Assembly (NCBI GenBank): GCA_036939975.1
Contig: JALLPB010000417.1
Coordinates: forward strand, 1 to 16,090
From: Cyclostephanos tholiformis
Lineage: Eukaryota > Bacillariophyta > Thalassiosirophyceae > Thalassiosirales > Thalassiosiraceae
DNA: 16,090 nt
Reading direction: 5' to 3'
The position numbers and the translations under genes are program-made. Below, in pieces: positions 2,008-13,831 of the stretch (the stretch's first letter is position 1; each line of letters opens with the position of its first letter). The notes under the pieces are model-generated. The model did not search any database. It saw only the letters and a program-made list of their open reading frames with translations, and had not been told where the DNA came from.

Positions 2008-5000
2008 GCATTCCTCGAAAAAAGTTCGAGTCGTAGGATTGCATTTCATCATATCCTTTTTTGGCAACCATTTATCATGACTTTTACTAAACTCCAAGTA
2101 ATGTACAAGATATTCAATGCTACCCAACTTCTTTTCTCTCCACCCTGAAACCATCGCTTCATATAGATGACCTTTGTCCCATGCAAAAATGATTTCGTTG
2201 ACCTTGAACTCATGAATCAATCTAGGTGATTTGCGTCGGCTGGACGCGTCCGACATTGTTCCATCACACGACACCTCAACTGGGAGTGTACTTCTCTCCG
2301 AGCAAGGCACTTGATTTTCAGCCACGCCATTGGCGAATTTTTCCTGGCAGATGCTACTGGAAATTCCCCATTTTACGGATACGCTCTTCACGAGCATCCT
2401 TCTTCCTATAGAATAAACTGCCTCCAACTGGGGAGATATCGACTCTGTTCCCTTTAATTCATCCGTTACGAATCGAGGCACGATACACCGAGACAGCTTA
2501 ACAGGTACAATTTCGTCCGGCGTTTTGGGCAGAGTCAGAAGCCTAGCCTTAGTAGTTCGCACAGGCACTGATTTTGCTGTGGCAAACAATTCATATGTCA
2601 ATCTAGGTGACTTCTGTCGTCTGGATGCATCTGATAATACATTTTTTCTTTTGCCACAAGGCTCTCGATTATCGACAAGGCTTTTTATTGGTGTCGCATG
2701 GCATTTGCTAGGAATACTCCACGTCACATTTACTCTCATTTTATCGAAATTTCTTTTGCCTTTGGAAAATGATGCCGTTAACTGAGGAGATATCGATTCT
2801 GTTCCCTTTTCCTCATCCGTTACGAATCGTTTTCCAATAAACCGAGAATGCTCAACTGTGTTTATTTTGTGGTTTGATAGCTTTAAAGTTCCACCAGACA
2901 CTAACTTCTTATGACTCTTCGTATACTGCGCTTGATCCCCACCCGAAAAGCACAGTGATTCTTTCCGGCGTTGATTGGGGATTCTCCATTTCAAAATAAC
3001 TCTGACCAGTTTCCTTTTTCCTAGGGTATACGATGCTTCTAAATTAGGACAAACAGTTTGAATCCCTTTGTCACGGTCGATGATGAACCGAGGTATAATT
3101 TTCAGATTTGTTTCGACGGCTTTTGTTGGGTCAGCTATTTCAGGCGTACCATCAAAAATAAGTTGAATAGAATCTGACAAAAATGCCTCAAGCGCAAAAA
3201 TAGCCCTGCCAGCGAGTTTTATTGATTTCAATTCTGGTGGTCTGTTGATGCCACACTTCTTGTTCCAGTGCTGCCTCCAGTTCTGTTTTCTATTGGAGAG
3301 CCACACATTAAATTCCTGCACAATACAAGATAATTGGCACTTTAAATAACATACGTGCAACGCTTAAGACTAAGAAATCACAAACCAATCTCACTTTTTC
3401 CGGGACTTTGTGTCCAAGCAGTAGCATGCGACCAGCCGGAACATCTCCCACGACATGTTCATCCCATTTCTTTTGCCGTTTTTGTCTCCATCTATTTTTT
3501 CGATCGGCAAGCCACACATGAAATATCTGAAGTACAAGTTTATATACATGCATGAGACGACAAATCTAAAACGCGTCGCGTGTAAGTTATGGTCTCAAAG
3601 CAGTCAACGGTCTCACTTCTACTGGTTGTAACTGCCCCCAAAAAAGCTTTGAACGATCACGATTCTCGTGTACCTCCTCTTCCCAGTTTCGGCCGAATCT
3701 TGGTTGTTTTTGTCTCCATCTATTTTTTCGATCGGCAAGCCATACATGAAATATCTGAAATACAAGTTTATAATCATGCATGAGACGACAAATCTAAAAC
3801 GCGTAGCGTGCAAGTTATGGTCACAAAACAGTAAACGGACTCACTTCTACTGGTTGTAACTGCCCCAAAAGAAGCTTTGGACGATCACGATTTTCGTGCA
3901 CCACTTCGTCCCAGTTTCGGCAGAACTTTTGCTGTTGTTGTCTCCATATATTTTTTCGATCGACAAGCCATGCATGAAATATCTGAAGTGCAAGTTTATA
4001 ATCATGCGTGAGACGACAAATCTAAAGCACGCAACGTTCAAATTATGGTCACGAAACAGTAAACGGACTCACTTCTACTGGTTGTAACTGCCCCAAAAGA
4101 AGCTTTGAACGATCACGATTCTCGTGCACCACTTCTTCCCAGATTCGTTCGAACTGTTCCCATTCTACCACACCAAGTGTTTCTCTTTCCTCATTAATAA
4201 TACTCGTCTTGAATTGATCCCGCAGTTCATTAGCCGGATCACGCAAATCACGAGCATACCGCATTATTTTCTCCTGAACTTTTCCTGTATGCCCCAAAAG
4301 AAACATTGAACGATCACAATTCTGGTGCCCCTCTTTCGCCCACTTTCGTTCGAACTGTTCCCATTCCACCACACCCATTGCTTCCTTTCCCTCTCTCATC
4401 GTATTGGTCATGCATTGATCCCGCAGCTCAATACTCTGATCAGGCCAATCAAGAGCATACGGCATTATTTTCTTTTCAAACTTTGCTGTTTCTGACAAGA
4501 TGGGTGTCAGTTGGCTCGGTATAACGCAATTCAAAATGCTTTTCGTGTCAGTGAAGTCATGATGTGGAACTGATGCGTGGAAGGGTCGATGATTTCCTTG
4601 CCATTTTCCGAGTGAACTCCTGTGGTGCGATGAGGGAAACGCATGATGTCGTGCAGGCATATCAGATAAATCGTACCTTGGTCTGATGGGTCTAGGCGGA
4701 AGTGACGCCCACGGAATCAGCGAAGACAAATATGAAACAAGACCTAGACGAGCGTCGTACTGGGGTCTCGTCCACTCCCCCAAAGGAGCCCACGGCATGC
4801 GAGAAGATGGACATGAAACAGAACCAAGATGAGCGTCATACTGGTATCTCGTCAACCGCTCAAAAGGATTCCAACTAAATGACCTTAGTGGCGGTTGATT
4901 CGTCACATCGTTTGCATCCCGTTTCTTCACTTGCAGGTGAATATCATTCGGCAGTTCAGGCAAGTTGCCATTGTGCTTTGGAGGGCAAACCACAAACGGC

Positions 5001-6240
5001 AATACTGACGTTCGCCCATGCGAGAGCTGAATTTTCCCCCAGAGCTCCTGCAAACTCAGGGAGTTGGGCATCTCAGTGGGAGACGGCCTTTCGGGCAGAC
5101 GCTCTAGATGGAAAGTGTACTGAATGCCACCTGCGGAAATATGTAATTTTCCCTCGGTCCTTGAATGACCTGCTGCATCCCAAATATCAGTAACTAAATC
5201 TGAAATTGCGTGATGCGGATGGACGGGTGAAACGGTCAGTCGCGACATCTTAGGTTTTTCTAAACAGCCCCAATTGAAGCATTCATTAAGGCTTACATAG
5301 GCCATCGTATCTGTAGGATGTTCGGCCGCCATCAAACTCCGGAGGGGCGAACTCCGTTTTAAGTCTGGATGATCGAAACACACGAACTGGGCGTAATCGA
5401 TCACGACTCAGGCATAGGGCACCTGCACCTTGACTACGATTGCTGGTGTAACGAAGCCACTGCAGACCTGAGCGAAGAAATGACATGGACGATGAGAATA
5501 CACGAGGATCGACATGACTGAATTCTTGAAATAATCTGGTCACCATTCATCGGACTCACCGTCCTCTTCTCGATGGTCCGGGCATTGTCGAGAAACGACG
5601 ATTGAATCGGCTCCGTCTTGAACATTCCCATTCACGCCTCGTTGATCGGATCTATGACCGTACGATGAGTACAGGAACCGCCTGCTGTACAACGACCCCT
5701 CCACGATTCCCTGTGGATGGCCAAACGATACCAACCTGTATCGGAGAATGCAAGAATGATCCATGCGATGCCATTGCGTGAGACTGACGCGAAAACGGCG
5801 GGGGGGGGGGGGAAGAAAAAAATCATTCCCAAACTCACGGACGTTTGACCCTAAGGAGCGAGAACATCGACGCTACATCGCCATCCATATCGAGATCGTC
5901 GCATCCAACGATATCGGCTACAGCCATCCCGGAGTCGATCGGTACCGACGCCACGTCGCCGTGTCGAAAGATTAGAACGAACCTGGGCGACGGACTGTCC
6001 GTCCTCTTCGGCAATCGATGCTCGTATCCGCATTGCATGACACCGTCCATATCGTACCCGTCGGTCTCGCCAACGTATAGCTGTATTTCCTCGTCCCCGT
6101 CCATCAGGGGACAGGATCTCACGTTCGGTCGGAAGTGTACCGGCCTCGGTTCGCCGGGGGCGTCGACGACCACGCACAGTACTACCGATTCGCCTTAATT
6201 TTTTATTTTTTTCGCGGCGTGTTGTTTTGAGGAAAGCGCG

Positions 6241-6282
<42 letters not shown>

Positions 6283-7394
6283 GAAAGCGACGAGATGAGA
6301 GGAGGGGACGACGACGACGACGACGACGGCTGGAGGCGGGTCCTCCCTCCCCTCGTTCCCCTCCATATATACATATATATATATATAGGTATATATATTT
6401 ACCCTGCGTGTCGTCCGCGTGCCATCCTATACCGTCCTCCCCATCGCGATACGCGATCAAATCCACGCCTATGCCCCATGCATCGTTCGGCAATCCGTAA
6501 TGACGAGCGAGCTCCCTGGCGTAATCTTCCACGTCGGGCATGACGTTCATGGGCAACGCCCTCATTCTTATCCCGTGATACGAGTATCCCGGCCGAGGAT
6601 ACGATGATGCGGGCGGGTTTTCGTCGTCGTCGTCGTCGTCCGATGACGACTTGGCAATAATGTCGGACGCCATCGAGGACAGCAGGACGTGGAATCTCGG
6701 TTCCTGATATACACCCATTCGGGCGTATTGTCGGTAATGTTTGCAGGTTCGCATCGACGCCGACAATGCCGATCGCCTCGAGGTAGATAGCATGTTCGGA
6801 CGCATCCCGAGCTTGCCACCACGACGAAGCGATATGTCTGCCCTCCGCGCGAGGGAGCGAGCGGGTGGGGGAGAGAGAGCGGGTGCGACGACGATGATAC
6901 ATGAGGTGGGGCGGAAATGGATTTGACAATGATTGCAACTCGATGGATCAATGGACGTATATATAACCTCTCCCCCCACCCAGAAAATCCCCCCAAAGAA
7001 AACCGCTCCCCGTGGGACGGGGGGGAAAAAATTCATCCAACAACGAAACAACACCCTCCCCCCCCCTCGTACCTACGCGATCCATATTCCCTCCGCCCCC
7101 GTCCGTCGACCCTCCGATCAAAGGAGGGGACATTATGTCATTCCACTCCCCGTACCTCCGTTCGCGCTCATCGTATCGACGGATACGACCTATGATCCTC
7201 CTCTCGGGAGAAGGGTGTGGCAATGATGGCGATGACGACGGCGACGACGATGATGAGGTTGAGGAGGAGGAGGAGGCGGAGGAGGAGGATGGCTCATTCG
7301 TCTCCACTCTCATCGTTGTCGTCGTAGTCTCCGTTTCATCGTGGTCGTATTCGAGGCGTTGGATCGTCGCCGCTGCCCGGGCGAGAACGTCCAT
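1930..7394 (-). CDS. AlkB-like dioxygenase fused to SRA/YDG domain, tandem repeats and C-terminal chromo-barrel (about 1475 aa, ten exons)
   Basis: Exons, 5' to 3' on the minus strand: 7394-7073, 6837-6403, 6193-5839, 5783-5560, 5467-5297, 5199-4073, 3982-3845, 3754-3617, 3526-3395, 3315-1930. They sum to 4428 nt (1475 codons plus TAA), with matching phases and GT-AG ends at every junction. ATG 7394 has an ACCATGG context. Residues 1-107 are Ser-rich. Residues about 108-345 are AlkB-like: YQEPR (151-155), an acidic insert, H247-A-D249 (Fe ligands), H311 as the third ligand and R323...R329 in an RxxxxxR pattern for 2-oxoglutarate. Residues about 390-541 form an SRA domain: FGHPQGI, GVNGN, DGADSIVVS, PVRVFRS and YRYDGLY (497-503) across the 5297/5199 junction. 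Residues 746-1060 are repeats, 1085-1334 a triple repeat, and about 1386-1440 a chromo-barrel (LYEAMVSG, EYLVHY, DKWLPKKDMM). A nuclear, chromatin-bound enzyme on modified bases is inferred. The 55-nt intron 5784-5838 decides one gene or two: read through, the AlkB part stops at a TGA at 5837-5835 and an SRA gene could start at ATG 5764. Confidence 0.7.
2356..3105 (-). repeat. Triple protein repeat (PRF...KG...SPQL...GKR...W) in the last exon
   Basis: Three diverged units of about 45-50 residues lie at roughly 3105-2971, 2856-2707 and 2499-2356. Each reads (I/K)(P/R)RF(I/V)xDxxKG, then a (C/S)P(N/Q)L core, then a (G/K)(K/R)R segment and a W followed by I(P/S). The second and third units are the closest and share TESISPQL. 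Each of these two is followed by a basic SDAS-RR-KSPRL motif, so the duplicated piece is larger than the core. No known fold was recognised. The position between the WL-RK-WRQ repeats and the chromo-barrel suggests a structural or protein-binding array. Confidence 0.7.
3479..4140 (-). repeat. 228-bp tandem exon-plus-intron repeat
   Basis: Two 138-nt exons (3982-3845 and 3754-3617) and a shortened third (3526-3395, 132 nt) are separated by introns of 90 nt each (4072-3983, 3844-3755, 3616-3527). The exon donors lie at 4073, 3845 and 3617, exactly 228 bp apart. Exons begin ATA-TTT-CAT and end GTA-GAA, both phase 0, so each can be gained or lost without a frameshift. The introns are nearly as conserved as the exons, including the GTGAG donor, an internal TTTTAGATTTGTCGTCTCA stretch and the CTTCAG acceptor, which points to recent duplication. 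The encoded unit reads IFHVWLADRKNRWRQ..., then HENRDRSKL and GQLQPVE. The end of the upstream exon (4073-4140) matches the second half of the unit. Confidence 0.9.
4073..4471 (-). repeat. Tandem 66/67-residue protein repeat in the large central exon
   Basis: Two adjacent units (4471-4271 and 4270-4073, about residues 746-812 and 813-878) share KIM-YA, ELRDQ, GVVEWEQFER and CDRS/RDRS followed by a LLLG-type end. The second half of the second unit is also homologous to the second half of the downstream 138-nt exons, so the whole repeat field seems to have grown from one ancestral module. The same exon also holds two copies of a 24-residue Tyr/Ser/Pro-rich stretch (QYDAHLG / QYDARLG, roughly 4690-4850). 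Confidence 0.75.
6194..6402 (-). other. Simple-sequence-rich intron of the AlkB part
   Basis: This 209-nt intron lies between the HxD exon (ending CAG-G) and the exon starting GC-GAA-TCG, giving DDTQGESVV across the junction. On the plus strand it holds a run of 40 G (6242-6281), a GAC run (about 6307-6327) and a TA-rich run (about 6364-6400). On the transcript the G run is 40 C, a very long pyrimidine tract some 50 nt before the TTAAG acceptor. Homopolymer length may be unstable or wrongly assembled. Confidence 0.8.
6838..7072 (-). other. First intron of the AlkB-SRA gene (or alternative promoter)
   Basis: The donor is GTACGA after GCGTAG at 7073. The acceptor is GGGCAG after a long CT-rich tract, at 6838-6839. 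Both ends are phase 1, and joining them gives MDRV-DISLRRGGKLGMRPN without a stop. On the minus strand a TATATATA stretch occurs near 6958-6966, so the same 235 nt could instead hold a promoter for a shorter protein starting at ATG 6805 or 6793. The strong ACCATGG at 7394 and the phase match favour an intron. Confidence 0.6.
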
Positions 7395-7797
7395 GGTGTT
7401 GCTTAAGTGTAGTGTGTGCCGTCGTTGGCGGTTGATTCGTCCTGGTCGTTTTGTGTTTTCGGGGTGTCAGGTAAGACGGTGCATGCACAGCATGCATGCG
7501 AAGTAGCCAAAACCAAGCGTATGTGGGAATAAGTATGCGATACCTTCGGATCATCAGGATCGACATCATCACAATGTCAGTTTTCTCTCAATACATCGTC
7601 CTCAACACCCCGACCGGCTCGTACGCCGCTACGATCGACGACATCCCTCGCCCCCCCCCCCCCCCCCCCCCGCCCCCCCCCCCCCCCCACTACCACTACC
7701 ATCGTCGTAACTCCAGTTATCCTCGATCCACGTCGTTGGAACATCTTGCTTCGAATTCTCCCATCGACCCCATCGGCAACGGGGGGGAAAGAACGTC
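7395..7797. promoter_or_regulatory. Divergent promoter region between the AlkB-SRA and Tudor/UDG-like genes
   Basis: About 400 bp separate the minus-strand ATG at 7394 from the plus-strand ATG at 7798, so both 5' leaders and core promoters must fit here, unless the introns next to them carry promoter elements. Visible elements are a cluster of TGCATGCA-like palindromes (about 7480-7500) and a long interrupted C run. No convincing TATA box was found. An open frame of about 30 codons from an ATG near 7574 runs into the C run and is not supported as a gene. Confidence 0.6.
7651..7688. repeat. Interrupted poly-C tract (21 C, G, 16 C)
   Basis: This is a run of cytosines broken by a single G at 7672, about 110 bp upstream of the ATG at 7798. 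It would be in the 5' leader or core promoter of the plus-strand gene. The complementary strand is G-rich and could form a G-quadruplex. Exact length is unsafe because such runs are prone to sequencing and assembly error. Confidence 0.9.
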
Positions 7798-9128
7798 ATG
7801 CCGAGACGTCGCGTCATCGGAGATTCCGACTCCGAAGATGACGACAACGACGACGATGGTGGGTGCTTGGCTCCCGAGAACAATTGCGGTGGTGGTGGCG
7901 GCGGCGAGGAGTTCTTCACGAACGACGAGATGGAGGCCATCGAAAGGTGCAAAATACGTATCAACGACAATGGGGGGATATACTCCGACGAATGCACCTC
8001 GCATGCCATCGCGAGGGTGGGGATGCCGCCCCTCGAACTGATCGCGCATGACGCCGTTCCCCTCCCCCCCCTGTATCAAAGGCACCGCGTGAAAGTCGGG
8101 TACGAGAGGGCGTACTTCGACAGGGACATTTACAAGGTCCACGGTACGAGATTCGACGTTACCGACGATGATCCCGACCACGGGGGTCGTTGTTATTCGG
8201 AGGAGGCGATACTGCTCGAGATCGAGACCGTCCGTAAATCCGAGAAGGCCGCCAAGAATAGATTGTTCAAGAACGGGGAGACCGGGGGGATGGTCGTGTT
8301 CGGTCCCTGGTTCAATTACGCCCTTCGACGATTGTTGCATCTTTCATCGAGTGACGCATGTCGAACGTCAACGGCCTCGGAGTACACCGCGATAAAGATC
8401 GTTAGGTCCCTGTTCTCTTTCATCGCCGAGGACATGAGAGATGTCGTAAGGCCCGGGAGATTACGCGACTTGAAAAATATCGCGGGGGTCGATTGGGAGG
8501 GAAATGTTAGCGCGGCACGTAGGGTCATCGATTATTGCGGCGGATCGGCCCATTTCCTTCACGAGGAATTCGCCGTCGTGGAATCATACGTGGAGAGCCT
8601 CAAGAGGAGGAGGAGGAAGACTCCGAAGGCATCGATACCCGTCGCGGTTCCGCCGTCGTCTGCATCGAGTACGGCATCACCCTCGCGCGACGGACTCGAT
8701 TCGACGGCAACGGGCGAGGAATCGTCCGCCGGCACAAGTGCCCGGTCGTGCGATTCCCCGGATCTCGGATATCGCACTCCCGCCTCCAGTCCTCTCATCG
8801 CGACGACGACCCCATCGTCTCGTTCGACGATGATTCGACCATGCCCTCGATCGTCGAATTCCACGCGGCGTCCTCCGCCGACGGGTGCGGCGAATACGAT
8901 GAAGAAGAGGAAGGACAAGTCGCACGTCGTCGAACGATTTTCAATGGACGAATCATCGTCGGGGGAGGAGGAGGAGGAGGACGACGACGACAGACGACGT
9001 GATGACATTGCGTTGCCTCGAGGTAAACGAAAGGACTTGGTAAGTCGCGGCGGCGAGGGGGGGTGCATCGTGGATGCATCCACGTCGTTCGAGTGCCGCC
9101 GTCCCGATCGCTACTCCAATATGCCGCC

Positions 9129-9176
<48 letters not shown>

Positions 9177-12100
9177 TAACGATTCGAACGGCCCGGAGAA
9201 TATCGAGATCGGCGACGTCGGTTACGTATTTCGCAAGGAATTCAGGTCGGGTTGGTTCCTCGGGAAAGTGATGGAGATACGCCCGTGGGTCGGTGAGTCC
9301 ATCTATAGAGAGTCGTAGAGAGAGAATATCGCCCCCCCCCCCCACCCCTCCCAACTATCGTGATTTTTCTTTTGCTCTCCTCCTCGTACCCTGATCGTTT
9401 CCTTCCGACCCCCCCCCTCCTTTGACCCATTGCCATCTCTCCAGCGAACGGACGTGACAGACGATGCGTCTTCATCAACGGCGTTGTCGAGGATCTGAGT
9501 TTGGCGGATCTCGAGGTTCTCGCCTGGCACGATCCCGATAACGTCTCCACTCCCGGCAACGTCGCCGTCGCCGATAAGGGGGGGCGAAGTTCGATCAATG
9601 ACGGCGACGCCGCTTCCGCCCCGATGACCGAACGAATCGACGAGCGATCGCGGGAGGACGATGGCGGACGCGATGATGACACCGCGGTACGGCGGCCGCG
9701 AAAACGACCGATGGACGCTGCGGGACGCTGCGTCGAGGAAGGGAAGTGCCTCTCCCCCGATCGAAAGGACTCCAATGCGCCGCTAGTGTCGAGGACGGGG
9801 AGCATATCGCCGATGATCGACCTTACGATGGATTCGGGCGACGACGATGATTACGGCGTGGAGGACGGGCAGGCCCCCCTCGTGGCGACATTGCGTCGCG
9901 ATCGCGGCGGTCGAACGACTCGGGAGGTTAGGGTGACAATTGTGTGGGATGATGAGTTCGAGTCGTCAGAGGCCATCCGTCGTCCCGATTACCGAGCTGT
10001 CGCATCCGGGACGAGGAAAACGATGGAACGCAATCGTCGCATCGACGACGACGACGATGATGACGACGACGGCGACGATGGAGATCCGCCCTTTCGCCGG
10101 TCGGGCCATCCCTTTCTAGGGCGGCGCGTACGCTACTTCCTCCCCCCCCATCCAGCCGCCGCCGCCGCCAACTACCACGTTGAAGATATCGCCATCAATG
10201 GAACCATCACCGGATACCTTTCCCCCAACGACGTAGATTCCGATGGACGTCCGGCCTTCATGTGCAGCCGCGATCCGACGCGCCCGGCGGCATTGTTCCG
10301 AGTCGACTTCGACGTCGATGATGATGATCCGCGAGTGAAGACGACCGCGAACTTGGAGGAGTGGGAGATCGAGGAGGACTGCTCCTGGCTGCCTTTGCAA
10401 AAAGAGGGGGTCGTCAATGACGATGAGAAGATGACGGAAAAGTCAGGGGAGGTCGGGTCACCTTCGAAGAAGTGTCGCAAGCGAAGGCGGACTGTCGTGC
10501 CCCCCCTGCCGGACATCCAGACATCAAACGGGAGTCAGACCCCCGAAGAAGGGCAGGACGGGGTAGGCCTACTCGACGAGGACGATTACGCGAGTCTCCA
10601 CATCAGGTACCTCAAGCCACGGATTCGTGAGAACGTCGAGCTTGCCGGGGGGATGACCCTTCGAAGGCAATGCCGTGGCAGGCTCATCGATCAAAACACG
10701 TCAGGATTTCGCATGCTTAGGTCTAGGATCGACGCCCTAACGAAAAAGAACGATCGTCCGGAGATCTATCGAATATTATGCCAGCTACGGGACTGGGAGC
10801 TGGACCCGCGGAGGGTGCCCGCGGCATTTCAGGATGCGGGAGAGAACAAGGACGTCATTGAAATATTAGATATGACAAAAGGTATGAACGAAACTTCCAA
10901 GGGTGAATGCATAAACGTGGATGACTACATCGCTGATGTTCTTCTCGCCCCGGTCGAAACTCTGAGCGGTTACATACCACCGCAAACCACCTCGAGCAAG
11001 CAAGAACAACGCGTTACTTCTCATGACAAGCCTACGGATGGGTGCAATGGGATAGCTATAGAAACGTTATCTAAAGCCAGCAACTGCCAGAATGATGGAC
11101 CAGCAACTACTACTTATGACTGCCATCAACAAAGCCTACCATCAAATGCCCTGTTCCGGGTGCAGTTCACCCACTGTGGAATTGAAGAATTGGATGCATA
11201 CGCGTATGCTGTGATTGAGACTTTACGCAATGAATGTGGGTTTGTCTCAACTCATGATGATGCTCATTCGGCAACTACAAGCGGAGAACCACAGAACAAC
11301 ACATGTGCTACTTGCAATCGAATTTCGTCAGTTGATGAGAACCTGCAGGTGATTGAGAAGCAAAAGAGACAACAGAAGAAGATTACGTCCTTCGCAAACA
11401 GTCATTGGACGTGCGAATGCGCCGCCGGCGAAAGTTGGCACTGGAGCAAGGGAAAGCGACCGAGAGAGCAGATCGATGAACGAAGCGACTCCAGTTCGAT
11501 ACAATTGAGTGCGGTCTCTTCTTTGTCTTCTTCGTCAACAGATCATTCTACCCCAATGCTTCGACGATTCCGGAGTAATACCCCAAAACAAAGAGGTTCT
11601 TCTGCAATCAGTGCTTATGCAAATTTGAATGACCGTATGAAACCACCGGGCCAACTGACGATTCACGAGTGCCGCGGATTTTATGTCCTAGGTTCAACAA
11701 GACGTCCACAGTTCCGGAATAGTGAAGATCTACTGCCCTCCATGCAATACAACTCAGGCCCAGGACTTTCATCTGGTGGCGCGGCGATGCCTAACTTCTA
11801 CAATTCTGCTGGAAGTGTCACACTTCAAAATAAGACCTATGTCCCATTATTTGATGATCAGATACCCATATTAGGCGAGGGCCCAATGTTACATCACAGA
11901 ATCCCACCTCCCAAGTCTGAAGCCAGTACAAACATTTCCAACTCGCAGTCTAGCTTGCCTTCAAATGAGTCTCAGGTTTCACAAGTTGTCACAGTTGTCA
12001 CGCCGGAAGCTAGACGACAGAAGCCTCGTCCTCGTATGTCGAAGAAGAAGCAGAAGAGCATTCACGTCAATTCGAATCTAGGAAAAAAGTCGCATTTTAC

Positions 12101-13831
12101 GAAGAGTGTCGCCAAATTCTCTATCACTGATTTTGGGTTCCCTCCCCAGAGCATTCCCATTTATCCCTTGGCGTCATCTTCCTCTGCCCGCAGCGTGAGA
12201 AAGGGACGTAATCGACACTTGACAATGAAAGCCGATGAAACATCACACCAACGAGATCCTTTTAATTGTTGCTCGGCCAGGGCTTTGCCTAATTGCACCA
12301 ACCTCTCAGTCATACCGGCATCACGATTACTTGATAAAGAATTCAAATCGATCAAAACTGAATGTCTGCGGGAGCAATGGAACATGCAAACTGCACTGAG
12401 GAGAACTGGGCAGTGGACTCCAAGTGGTCATGTGACTGGACGGTGGAAGCCTCCACCATGGGCAGTTGTCCAAGGCCTCGGGAAGTCATATGGCACCATG
12501 AGTGTGCAGATCCAAAAGCAAAAAAAATATCCAGGCTGTAGAAAGTCGTTGTTGCCAAAATTGGATATCCTCGTATCAAACTTCTCAGCTGAAATGCGAA
12601 TGAGTTGTGACTACAGCGATATAAACCACGCTTCTGCCTCACTTCAGGATGTGGTCTGTCCTCAGTATGTCAGGCCCACCATCAATCTTCTGTGCAGCGC
12701 GCATTCGGCTGTTGAATCTCTGCTCCCAAAGGGCGACTGCGAGGACTGGGAGGTTGTAGCAATGGCGTGGCGCTACTACAATCATTGGCGCCCGAGCGAG
12801 ACCAAGGTTATCCTCCTTGCCGAATCGCATGCGTTTACATCTAAGGCGAGTTCTCCGGTTCTTTTTTTTTCATTACTCGAGCGCGCTAATTGTAAAGAGT
12901 TTTTGTGAATGATGTTAGGAGCGTGCATATGGACCAGGGTTGGATAAAGGAATGCTGCAGGACTCATACTTCGGGCCAAGAGGATTCGTCTCTCTTGTAT
13001 ATTGCCTGTCTTATGGCGAGAATGAGTCCTTAAGTGGTGGTGGGGTGATTGATAGCACCAACAAAGGAACGCCGCAGTTTTGGACTTTATTTGCTGCGTG
13101 CTCCAGAGGAGTAGATCATGTTGCAGAAACAATGGCGAAGAACGCATCAAGCTCTCCCTTTGCATCGGATCTTCTGAAAGGAGGCAACTTGTCGGTGGAA
13201 GAACGATTGAAAGCCAAGCTTGAGGTGCTTGAAGACCTTCGCAGTCGTGGCATCTGGCTTCTTGATGCATCAATATTTGGCTGGTACATGAGCCAGCCTC
13301 AGGTGTATTCAAAGTCATCTTTATCCGGTGAAGTGCATCGCAAGCAGAAGAATCGACCCCCAAAGGAACTCAAAATACCATCACTGGTGCTGTCCTGGGA
13401 ATTATTCACGAAGCATCTGATTAGAGAAGTAGCCGATGAAGGACATCTCAAAGTGCGTCTCCGCCAGATTGTCTCGCTGCTTCGTTCATGCTTATCATCG
13501 TCTCAAATATCTTATTGTTCTATTTTTATTCCGCTCGCATCGTTACTTTTGTTTCCTCCTATAAATATTTTTAATGATGATTTGCCCCACGCTCCCCATG
13601 TTCGAGAAGTTGCTGATTCCGATCGGGATGGAAGTTGAGGCGGCACTCACTCGAGAGCGTATGGAAGATGCTGTCAGGGGGGAATCAACTGCGTCGGTTT
13701 CAGAGACTTTTCCCGCTCCAAATGCGTGGATACCAGGTGGATACGGTAGATTCCACGCGAGGCTCGCTGCATTGGTGACTGAGGCAGCTCCAAAAGTCGT
13801 CCACGACATGAACAAGGGTGTTAGATGTTAG
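7798..13831 (+). CDS. Large nuclear protein with two Tudor-like segments and a C-terminal uracil-DNA-glycosylase-like domain (about 1883 aa, four exons)
   Basis: Exons 7798-9292, 9445-12845, 12919-13452 and 13610-13831 total 5652 nt. Intron 9293-9444 (GTGAGT...CCAG, phase 1) restores GKVMEIRPWV-ANGRDRRCVF. Intron 12846-12918 has a GC donor (AAG/GCGAGT); a weaker in-phase GT lies at 12858. Residues 1-470 hold acidic stretches, basic KRRRRK and a Ser run; about 20-270 look ordered but are unrecognised. Residues about 470-527 (VFRKEFRSGWFLGKV, then FINGVVEDLSLADLEVL) and about 720-815 (GRRVRYF, NGTITGYL, LFRVDF, LEEWEIEEDCSW) are Tudor-like. A basic stretch at about 1360-1390 could be a nuclear signal. 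Residues about 1573-1883 follow the motif order of the UDG superfamily: VILLAESHAF (1620-1629), GTPQFWTLF (1682-1690), GIWLLDASIF (1743-1752), LLIPIG (1811-1816) and FPAPNAW (1844-1850). A similar family of unknown function exists in cyanobacteria and plants. Base-excision activity is inference. The plain UDG catalytic motifs are not present in exact form. Confidence 0.66.
9130..9177 (+). repeat. TCG trinucleotide repeat encoding poly-Ser
   Basis: About 16 TCG triplets in a row encode the Ser run at residues 445-460 of the plus-strand gene, just before the first Tudor-like segment. Other GAC/GAT and TCN runs in the same exon and around 10046-10080 give poly-Asp. Length variation here would change a linker only. 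Confidence 0.95.

Follow-up and report, generated by a model that had tools for sequence, protein, structure and literature searches.

The window analyzed here is the whole of contig JALLPB010000417.1 (C411; 16,090 bases) from the diatom Cyclostephanos tholiformis, whose genome assembly comprises 24.95 Mb in 1,566 contigs. On its minus strand it carries a ten-exon open frame whose predicted product, of 1,459 residues, joins an AlkB domain of the ALKBH2/ALKBH3 type to an SRA domain and a C-terminal chromo-barrel. Because the SRA and chromatin-reading domains lie in one chain with an intact iron site, the protein is proposed to be a chromatin-bound dioxygenase that oxidizes an uncharged methylated base, most likely 5-methylcytosine (5mC); the probability of this reading is put at roughly 0.4.

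As proposed, the protein would associate with modified DNA in chromatin and there, with the help of iron, oxygen, and 2-oxoglutarate, would oxidize the methyl group of its target base. The SRA would hold a flipped modified cytosine and tether the enzyme at methylated DNA, mostly that of transposons; the chromo-barrel would recognize either a histone mark or nucleic acid of the nucleosome; and the AlkB site would accept 5mC in preference to charged alkyl lesions, since the acidic residue that serves such lesions is replaced by Thr or Ser. 5mC is put forward because of this loss, because ALKBH2, ALKBH3, and AlkB are reported to oxidize 5mC in vitro (PMC8508711), and because 5mC is present in diatoms, namely T. 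pseudonana and C. cryptica (PMC9998398).

Gene model

Spliced at GT-AG introns, the window sequence gives an open frame that begins with an ATG (7394) and closes with a stop codon at 1930. Its features, all on the minus strand, are:

7073..7394, minus: exon 1; low-complexity N terminus, GRxRRY..Y..W motif, ATG at 7394
6403..6837, minus: exon 2; N-terminal half of AlkB, with H247 (6419-6421) and D249
6407..6409, minus: codon of Thr251, four residues past the first iron His; ALKBH2 and ALKBH3 have Glu here
5839..6193, minus: exon 3; C-terminal half of AlkB, with H311, R323, and R329
5560..5735, minus: exon 4; first part of the SRA (FGHPQG..GVNGN..DGADSIVVSRQ..REED)
5297..5467, minus: exon 5; middle part of the SRA (GLQWLRYTS..PVRVFRSS..YRYDGLY)
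4073..5199, minus: exon 6; end of the SRA (Pfam match to ~5096), linker, first helical repeats
3845..3982, minus: exon 7; helical-looking repeat, 46 amino acids (IFHAWLVDRKNIWRQ..)
3617..3754, minus: exon 8; helical-looking repeat, 46 amino acids
3395..3526, minus: exon 9; helical-looking repeat, 44 amino acids
1930..3315, minus: exon 10; three RFxxDxxxxxxxxSPxLxA...VxVxxKW-like repeats, C terminus, stop at 1930
2050..2196, minus: Tudor-knot / MRG-MSL3-type chromo-barrel, from Pfam (PF11717, PF22732) and the fold of homolog P0118

An earlier note on this DNA had joined AlkB to SRA across five introns between 7394 and 4073, and the in-frame GT-AG joins of exons 1-6 bear this out. It had also ended the gene at 4073; four more exons in fact follow, down to 1930. 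The exon 1 motif is common to homologs P0003, P0006, and P0093.

The acceptor of exon 4 is ambiguous, with candidates at 5783 and 5735 that differ by 16 residues. The second was adopted because the homologs lack the extra residues (27 of 35 aligned homologs, the nearest diatom ones included, are empty at these positions, and the other eight have short, unrelated linker letters) and because P0003 and P0006 read VKRPLVSFGHP at the junction, matching the 5735 version; acceptor 5783 is accordingly disfavored. The Pfam scan of the spliced protein referred to throughout was run on a 1,475-amino acid version.

Composition shifts along the gene, with 53-59% GC in exons 1-5 and 43-48% in exons 6-10, and third-position GC of 0.63-0.72 over the first 400 codons and 0.34-0.53 thereafter. 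Two duplications were also seen. A 228-bp exon-plus-intron unit is tandemly duplicated at 3526-4090, where identity is 81-90% among the introns at 4072-3983, 3844-3755, and 3616-3527 and 88% between exons 7 and 8; and a copy of the last 26 codons lies just downstream of the stop, at 1846-1923 (protein identity 77%).

AlkB domain and its active site

A profile of 24 homologs, compared with solved structures, matched ALKBH3 at E 6.6e-12, and a phmmer comparison of the window protein itself with human ALKBH3 gave E 6.7e-4. Models of homologs form the double-stranded beta-helix and have ALKBH2 and ALKBH3 as their best fold matches; 10 of 17 rescanned homologs, several of which are fragments, pass the PF13532 cut-off of 31.2 bits. 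The iron triad and arginines follow the pattern HxD..H, R(x5)R, at H247, D249, H311, R323, and R329, the numbers already given in the earlier note and correct once exon 4 starts at 5735.

Homologs were collected in two protein searches (85 and 30 proteins, 115 in all). All five catalytic positions are readable in 64 of them, the other 51 being gapped at one or more, and 56 of the 64 keep the complete HDHRR set; the exceptions are P0014, P0069, P0070, P0097, P0099, P0102, P0103, and P0104. Tyr237 (76/84) and Glu254 (74/76) are nearly invariant.

The family departs from its relatives at the position four residues past the first His. Here ALKBH2 and ALKBH3 have Glu, or Cys in cross-linked variants; among the 56 homologs with the full set it is Thr in 48 and Ser in eight, and acidic in none. 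A search pattern that puts no constraint on this position served as a control; the 31 bacterial AlkB loci it retrieved have Glu in 29 cases and Phe in two. In E. coli AlkB, positively charged lesions are bound by Asp135 (PMC8508711), which by its numbering is likewise four residues after a His, His131. As read from the alignment, the predicted site is thus without the acidic feature that favors 3-methylcytosine (3mC) and 1-methyladenine (1mA), unless Glu254 replaces it.

This bears directly on targeted alkylation repair, the main rival: an ALKBH2/3-type demethylase that the SRA and chromo-barrel would bring to methylated transposon islands, there to reverse 3mC that arises as a side product of DNA methyltransferases. 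Such a role is compatible with the fold, whose best matches are repair enzymes acting on 3mC and 1mA (PMC13390031), and DNMT1 and DNMT3 have been found to co-evolve with ALKB2, and DNMTs to produce off-target 3mC (PMC9246332). A C5-methyltransferase is encoded in the genome (see below), and no separate ALKBH2/3-like gene was found in genome searches, whose sensitivity across introns is low: PF13532 gave nothing at E 0.001 and two weak matches at E up to 10, one (C395) resembling ALKBH7 by eye and the other (C390) prolyl 4-hydroxylase. All 56 full-set homologs also have Glu254, which lies three residues beyond the Thr/Ser and might itself serve a charged lesion. Repair is not compatible, however, with the residue at +4 (Thr or Ser in every full-set homolog, against Glu in nearly all the bacterial proteins), and on balance is considered unlikely.

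An uncharged substrate other than 5mC has also to be considered. The protein might erase N6-methyladenine (6mA) or another neutral N-methyl mark, placed in chromatin by its SRA and chromo-barrel, by analogy with FTO, ALKBH5, and ALKBH1, which act on neutral bases. Its nearest kin by both sequence and fold are nevertheless ALKBH2 and ALKBH3, and an eraser of this kind appears decidedly improbable; a genome search found no MT-A70 writer, which carries little weight since the search control was silent too.

SRA domain and C-terminal region

With 53.6 bits and an E value of 2.7e-14, the spliced protein passes the SAD_SRA (PF02182) cut-off of 30.7 bits, and the fold comparison agrees; two single exons score 22.7 and 18 bits. 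The domain had been described as hidden by its division into three pieces in different frames. In fact exons 4 and 6 share a frame, with only exon 5 in another. Against solved structures, the profile of 24 homologs matched the SRA of TagI at 1.9e-13 and that of UHRF1 at 4.8e-7. Across 93 aligned SRA rows, including that of the window, Asp429 and an acidic residue (Glu/Asp) at 427 are present in 93, Tyr436 in 83, and Thr437 in 72, so that a flipped-base pocket is plausible from the aligned residues.

The chromo-barrel scores 23.8 bits on its own exon and 20.9 on the whole protein (cut-off 20.8), and its fold is recovered through homolog P0118. Outside it the model of the tail is poor (mean pLDDT 44.7). 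Between SRA and chromo-barrel are the helical-looking repeats, including one on each of exons 7-9, followed by the three RFxxD-type units. By eye, a VWLxxRKxxWRQ pattern in exons 6-10 recalls a homeodomain, for which the Pfam scan of the spliced protein offered no support; a Helicase-associated (HA)-like repeat is equally likely, and an HA domain is found in the tail of homolog P0111.

Homologs and distribution of the fusion

By precomputed annotation, PF13532 and PF02182 occur together in 47 of the 115 homologs (25/85 and 22/30 in the two sets). Eight of these 47 also have PF11717, seven have the PHD-like PF13771, and three a CW zinc finger. Of the 30 long homologs, eight are single proteins flagged for all three domains; they include annotated diatom genes such as ACHAW5_009421 of Stephanodiscus triporus (P0086) and ACHAXT_001471 of Thalassiosira profunda (P0093). 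On rescanning, P0086 falls below the cut-offs for PF13532 (26.6 vs. 31.2) and PF02182 (27.2 vs. 30.7), and P0093 below that for PF02182 (26.3 vs. 30.7). Both annotated proteins are missing the SRA stretch from RVFRSS to YRYDGLY, either through an annotation error common to the two or because an exon was skipped.

In Cyclotella cryptica CCRYP_016037-RA (P0094), AlkB and SRA are both above cut-offs. This gene has 10 exons, and its MAKER quality string has 1 in what are presumably the fields for splice and exon support. Two MMETSP transcripts, P0015 and P0019, each carry AlkB and SRA. The window protein aligns with P0086 over a span that starts at residue 123 and reaches almost to the C terminus, and its C-terminal 461 residues, used alone as a query, found eight homologs, seven of them with a precomputed Tudor-knot.

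A false join of neighboring genes or exons is conceivable, in that the gene model is known from genomic sequence alone and GC content falls after exon 5, but it is highly improbable: it is rejected by the homologs with all three domains in one protein and by the near full-length alignment with P0086, and the two transcripts with AlkB and SRA speak against it as well.

The closest named kin, Stephanodiscus, belongs to the Thalassiosirales. Diatom homologs show the same order of AlkB, SRA, and chromo-barrel, and the AlkB-SRA core extends to Triparma (Bolidophyceae) and to Chrysophaeum and Aureococcus (Pelagophyceae). As to a bacterial or viral origin, 31 loci in genome_contigs matched the AlkB part only and five in viral_contigs the SRA part only, from one or two peptide patterns each, so that the fusion may occur elsewhere. 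In a tree of 90 SRA rows, in which long branches were flagged and deep joins are unsure, the window and Stephanodiscus fall in a set of eight (98/93), pelagophyte-type sequences form a set of 10 (100/98), and a paralog from the same genome (C66:17500-26500) is in a set of 12 (99/95). This paralog has an SRA and three Tudor-knots above threshold. Elsewhere among the homologs, P0056 appears by eye to have two successive SRA-like copies, the latter diverged, where Pfam reports one stretch.

Proposed function and points against it

The genome encodes a C5-methyltransferase domain at C425 (profile positions 2-321 of 324), with further pieces at C446. Those at C446 lie beside an open reading frame that resembles, by eye, the end of a Copia-type retrotransposon polyprotein.

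Several observations weigh against oxidation of 5mC. PF13532 scored 14.4 bits on one exon of the window protein, below its cut-off, and was not listed at all in the Pfam scan of the spliced protein; the profile search proposed in the earlier note thus recovered the SRA and not the AlkB domain. Two residues before a conserved active-site Tyr, all 56 full-set homologs have Ile, Val, or Leu, where 30 of 31 bacterial AlkBs have Asn. Two residues after the first Arg, the Asn of ALKBH2/3 gives way to Val in 37 homologs, Ala in 13, Cys in four, Gly in one, and Ile in one. In AlkB both of these Asn contact 2-oxoglutarate, so their replacement may mean altered or weak binding of the co-substrate. Glu254 could also stand in for the missing acidic residue.

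The reader domains are diverged too. Where UHRF1 and TagI have LAGGY and LNGGY, the window SRA has VSRQ, and the family has mostly Arg-Gln plus a variable residue at the Gly-Gly-Tyr position; since the Gly-Gly and the first base-sandwiching Tyr of UHRF1 are replaced, reading of 5mC or 5-hydroxymethylcytosine is not to be assumed. In the aromatic cage of the chromo-barrel, judged by eye, Tyr and Phe are kept and the second Trp is His. MRG15 has Trp at the two sites occupied here by Phe and His, and methyl-lysine reading is for this reason unsure.

Finally, the C66 paralog gave no AlkB match in a Pfam scan, and in its clade, which has an SRA and several chromo-barrels, the HxD motif is broken in P0097, P0099, P0102, P0103, and P0104, with the full catalytic set retained in P0015 and P0101. 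From these sequences, AlkB appears to be in the course of loss in this clade while the reader domains stay, and reading can seemingly be retained without catalysis. The window protein could by extension be a reader or adaptor with little or no AlkB activity, filling the role of UHRF1 in connecting methylated DNA with histones. The replaced Asn residues would fit such a role, and UHRF1-type accessory proteins have been named as worth investigating in diatoms (PMC9998398). The catalytic set kept in most readable homologs, even in two members of the sister clade, is hard to explain without catalysis; Tyr237 and Glu254 are nearly invariant as well, and a purely reading role seems quite unlikely.

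With these points set against it, oxidation of 5mC is retained as the proposal. The architecture is real, and the suggestion that the enzyme is directed to a modified base in chromatin has become more likely, as far as domain content can indicate, given the chromo-barrel, which the earlier note had missed, and the CW- and PHD-type domains of relatives. That it could be an alternative to TET is made more plausible by the missing acidic lesion-binding residue in homologs with the full catalytic set, and less so by the diverged SRA pocket and the two substitutions near the 2-oxoglutarate site. A broader scenario, in which an AlkB repair enzyme gave rise in ochrophytes to a TET-independent 5mC oxidase, its catalytic site retuned toward neutral in place of charged bases and its SRA and chromo-barrel, CW, or PHD domains reading modified cytosine and chromatin, some relatives keeping only the reading half, is possible but doubtful.

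Comparison with known systems

ALKBH2 and ALKBH3 are small single-domain enzymes, whereas the window protein is fused to an SRA and chromatin readers, and its family differs from this AlkB group (group II) in the Thr/Ser at the acidic +4 position and in both replaced Asn. Compared with the SRAs of TagI, UHRF1/UHRF2, and SUVH proteins, that of the window is without the Gly-Gly and first sandwich Tyr, and is two residues longer before the Tyr-Thr. The Pfam scan found no HNH nuclease, RING, PHD, or SET domain beside it, unlike UHRF1 and VIM proteins, with PHD and RING, and SUVH proteins, with SET after the SRA. Nor was an MRG domain found, in contrast to MRG15 and MSL3, whose aromatic cage appears only partly kept in the window protein.

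Likeness to TET and JBP enzymes lies in the joining of a would-be iron/2-oxoglutarate enzyme on modified bases to a DNA reader; some TETs carry CXXC. TET/JBP (PF12851) is another branch of the superfamily; the Pfam scan of the window protein listed eight families with E values of 10 or less, and Tet_JBP was not one of them. A TET_JBP search of this genome also found none, but its control was silent, so that absence is not shown.

The component domains are of known kinds; what is new is their union and the retuned AlkB site. Among the matches listed in a search of open-licence literature (CC0, CC BY, CC BY-SA), none stood out as an account of an AlkB-SRA fusion. One may be mentioned in the reviews of domain architectures in DNA methylation by Iyer, Abhiman, and Aravind. 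In the portions available, neither AlkB nor SRA is mentioned in PMC9998398 or PMC12344493, AlkB is not mentioned in PMC9861306 or PMC10538959, and SRA is not mentioned in PMC3265494. The last describes an ALKBH12 group in stramenopiles marked as diatoms, which may correspond to the AlkB-SRA proteins.

Transposons are methylated in diatoms, and study of UHRF1-type accessory proteins has been called for (PMC9998398). The AlkB-SRA family is a concrete candidate for a protein that both reads and erases such marks, and is present in Cyclotella cryptica, a cultured species with reported 5mC. The remodeled AlkB site makes a sharp prediction, of a neutral rather than a charged base; and 5mC oxidation, if true, would give diatoms their own means of rewriting DNA marks.

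Neighboring genes

The gene is flanked by two others on the plus strand. No Pfam match was found in two scanned pieces of the one at 91-1740, which is likely multi-exon, or in three scanned frames of the other, a long, divergently oriented, and likely multi-exon gene at 7790-13830.

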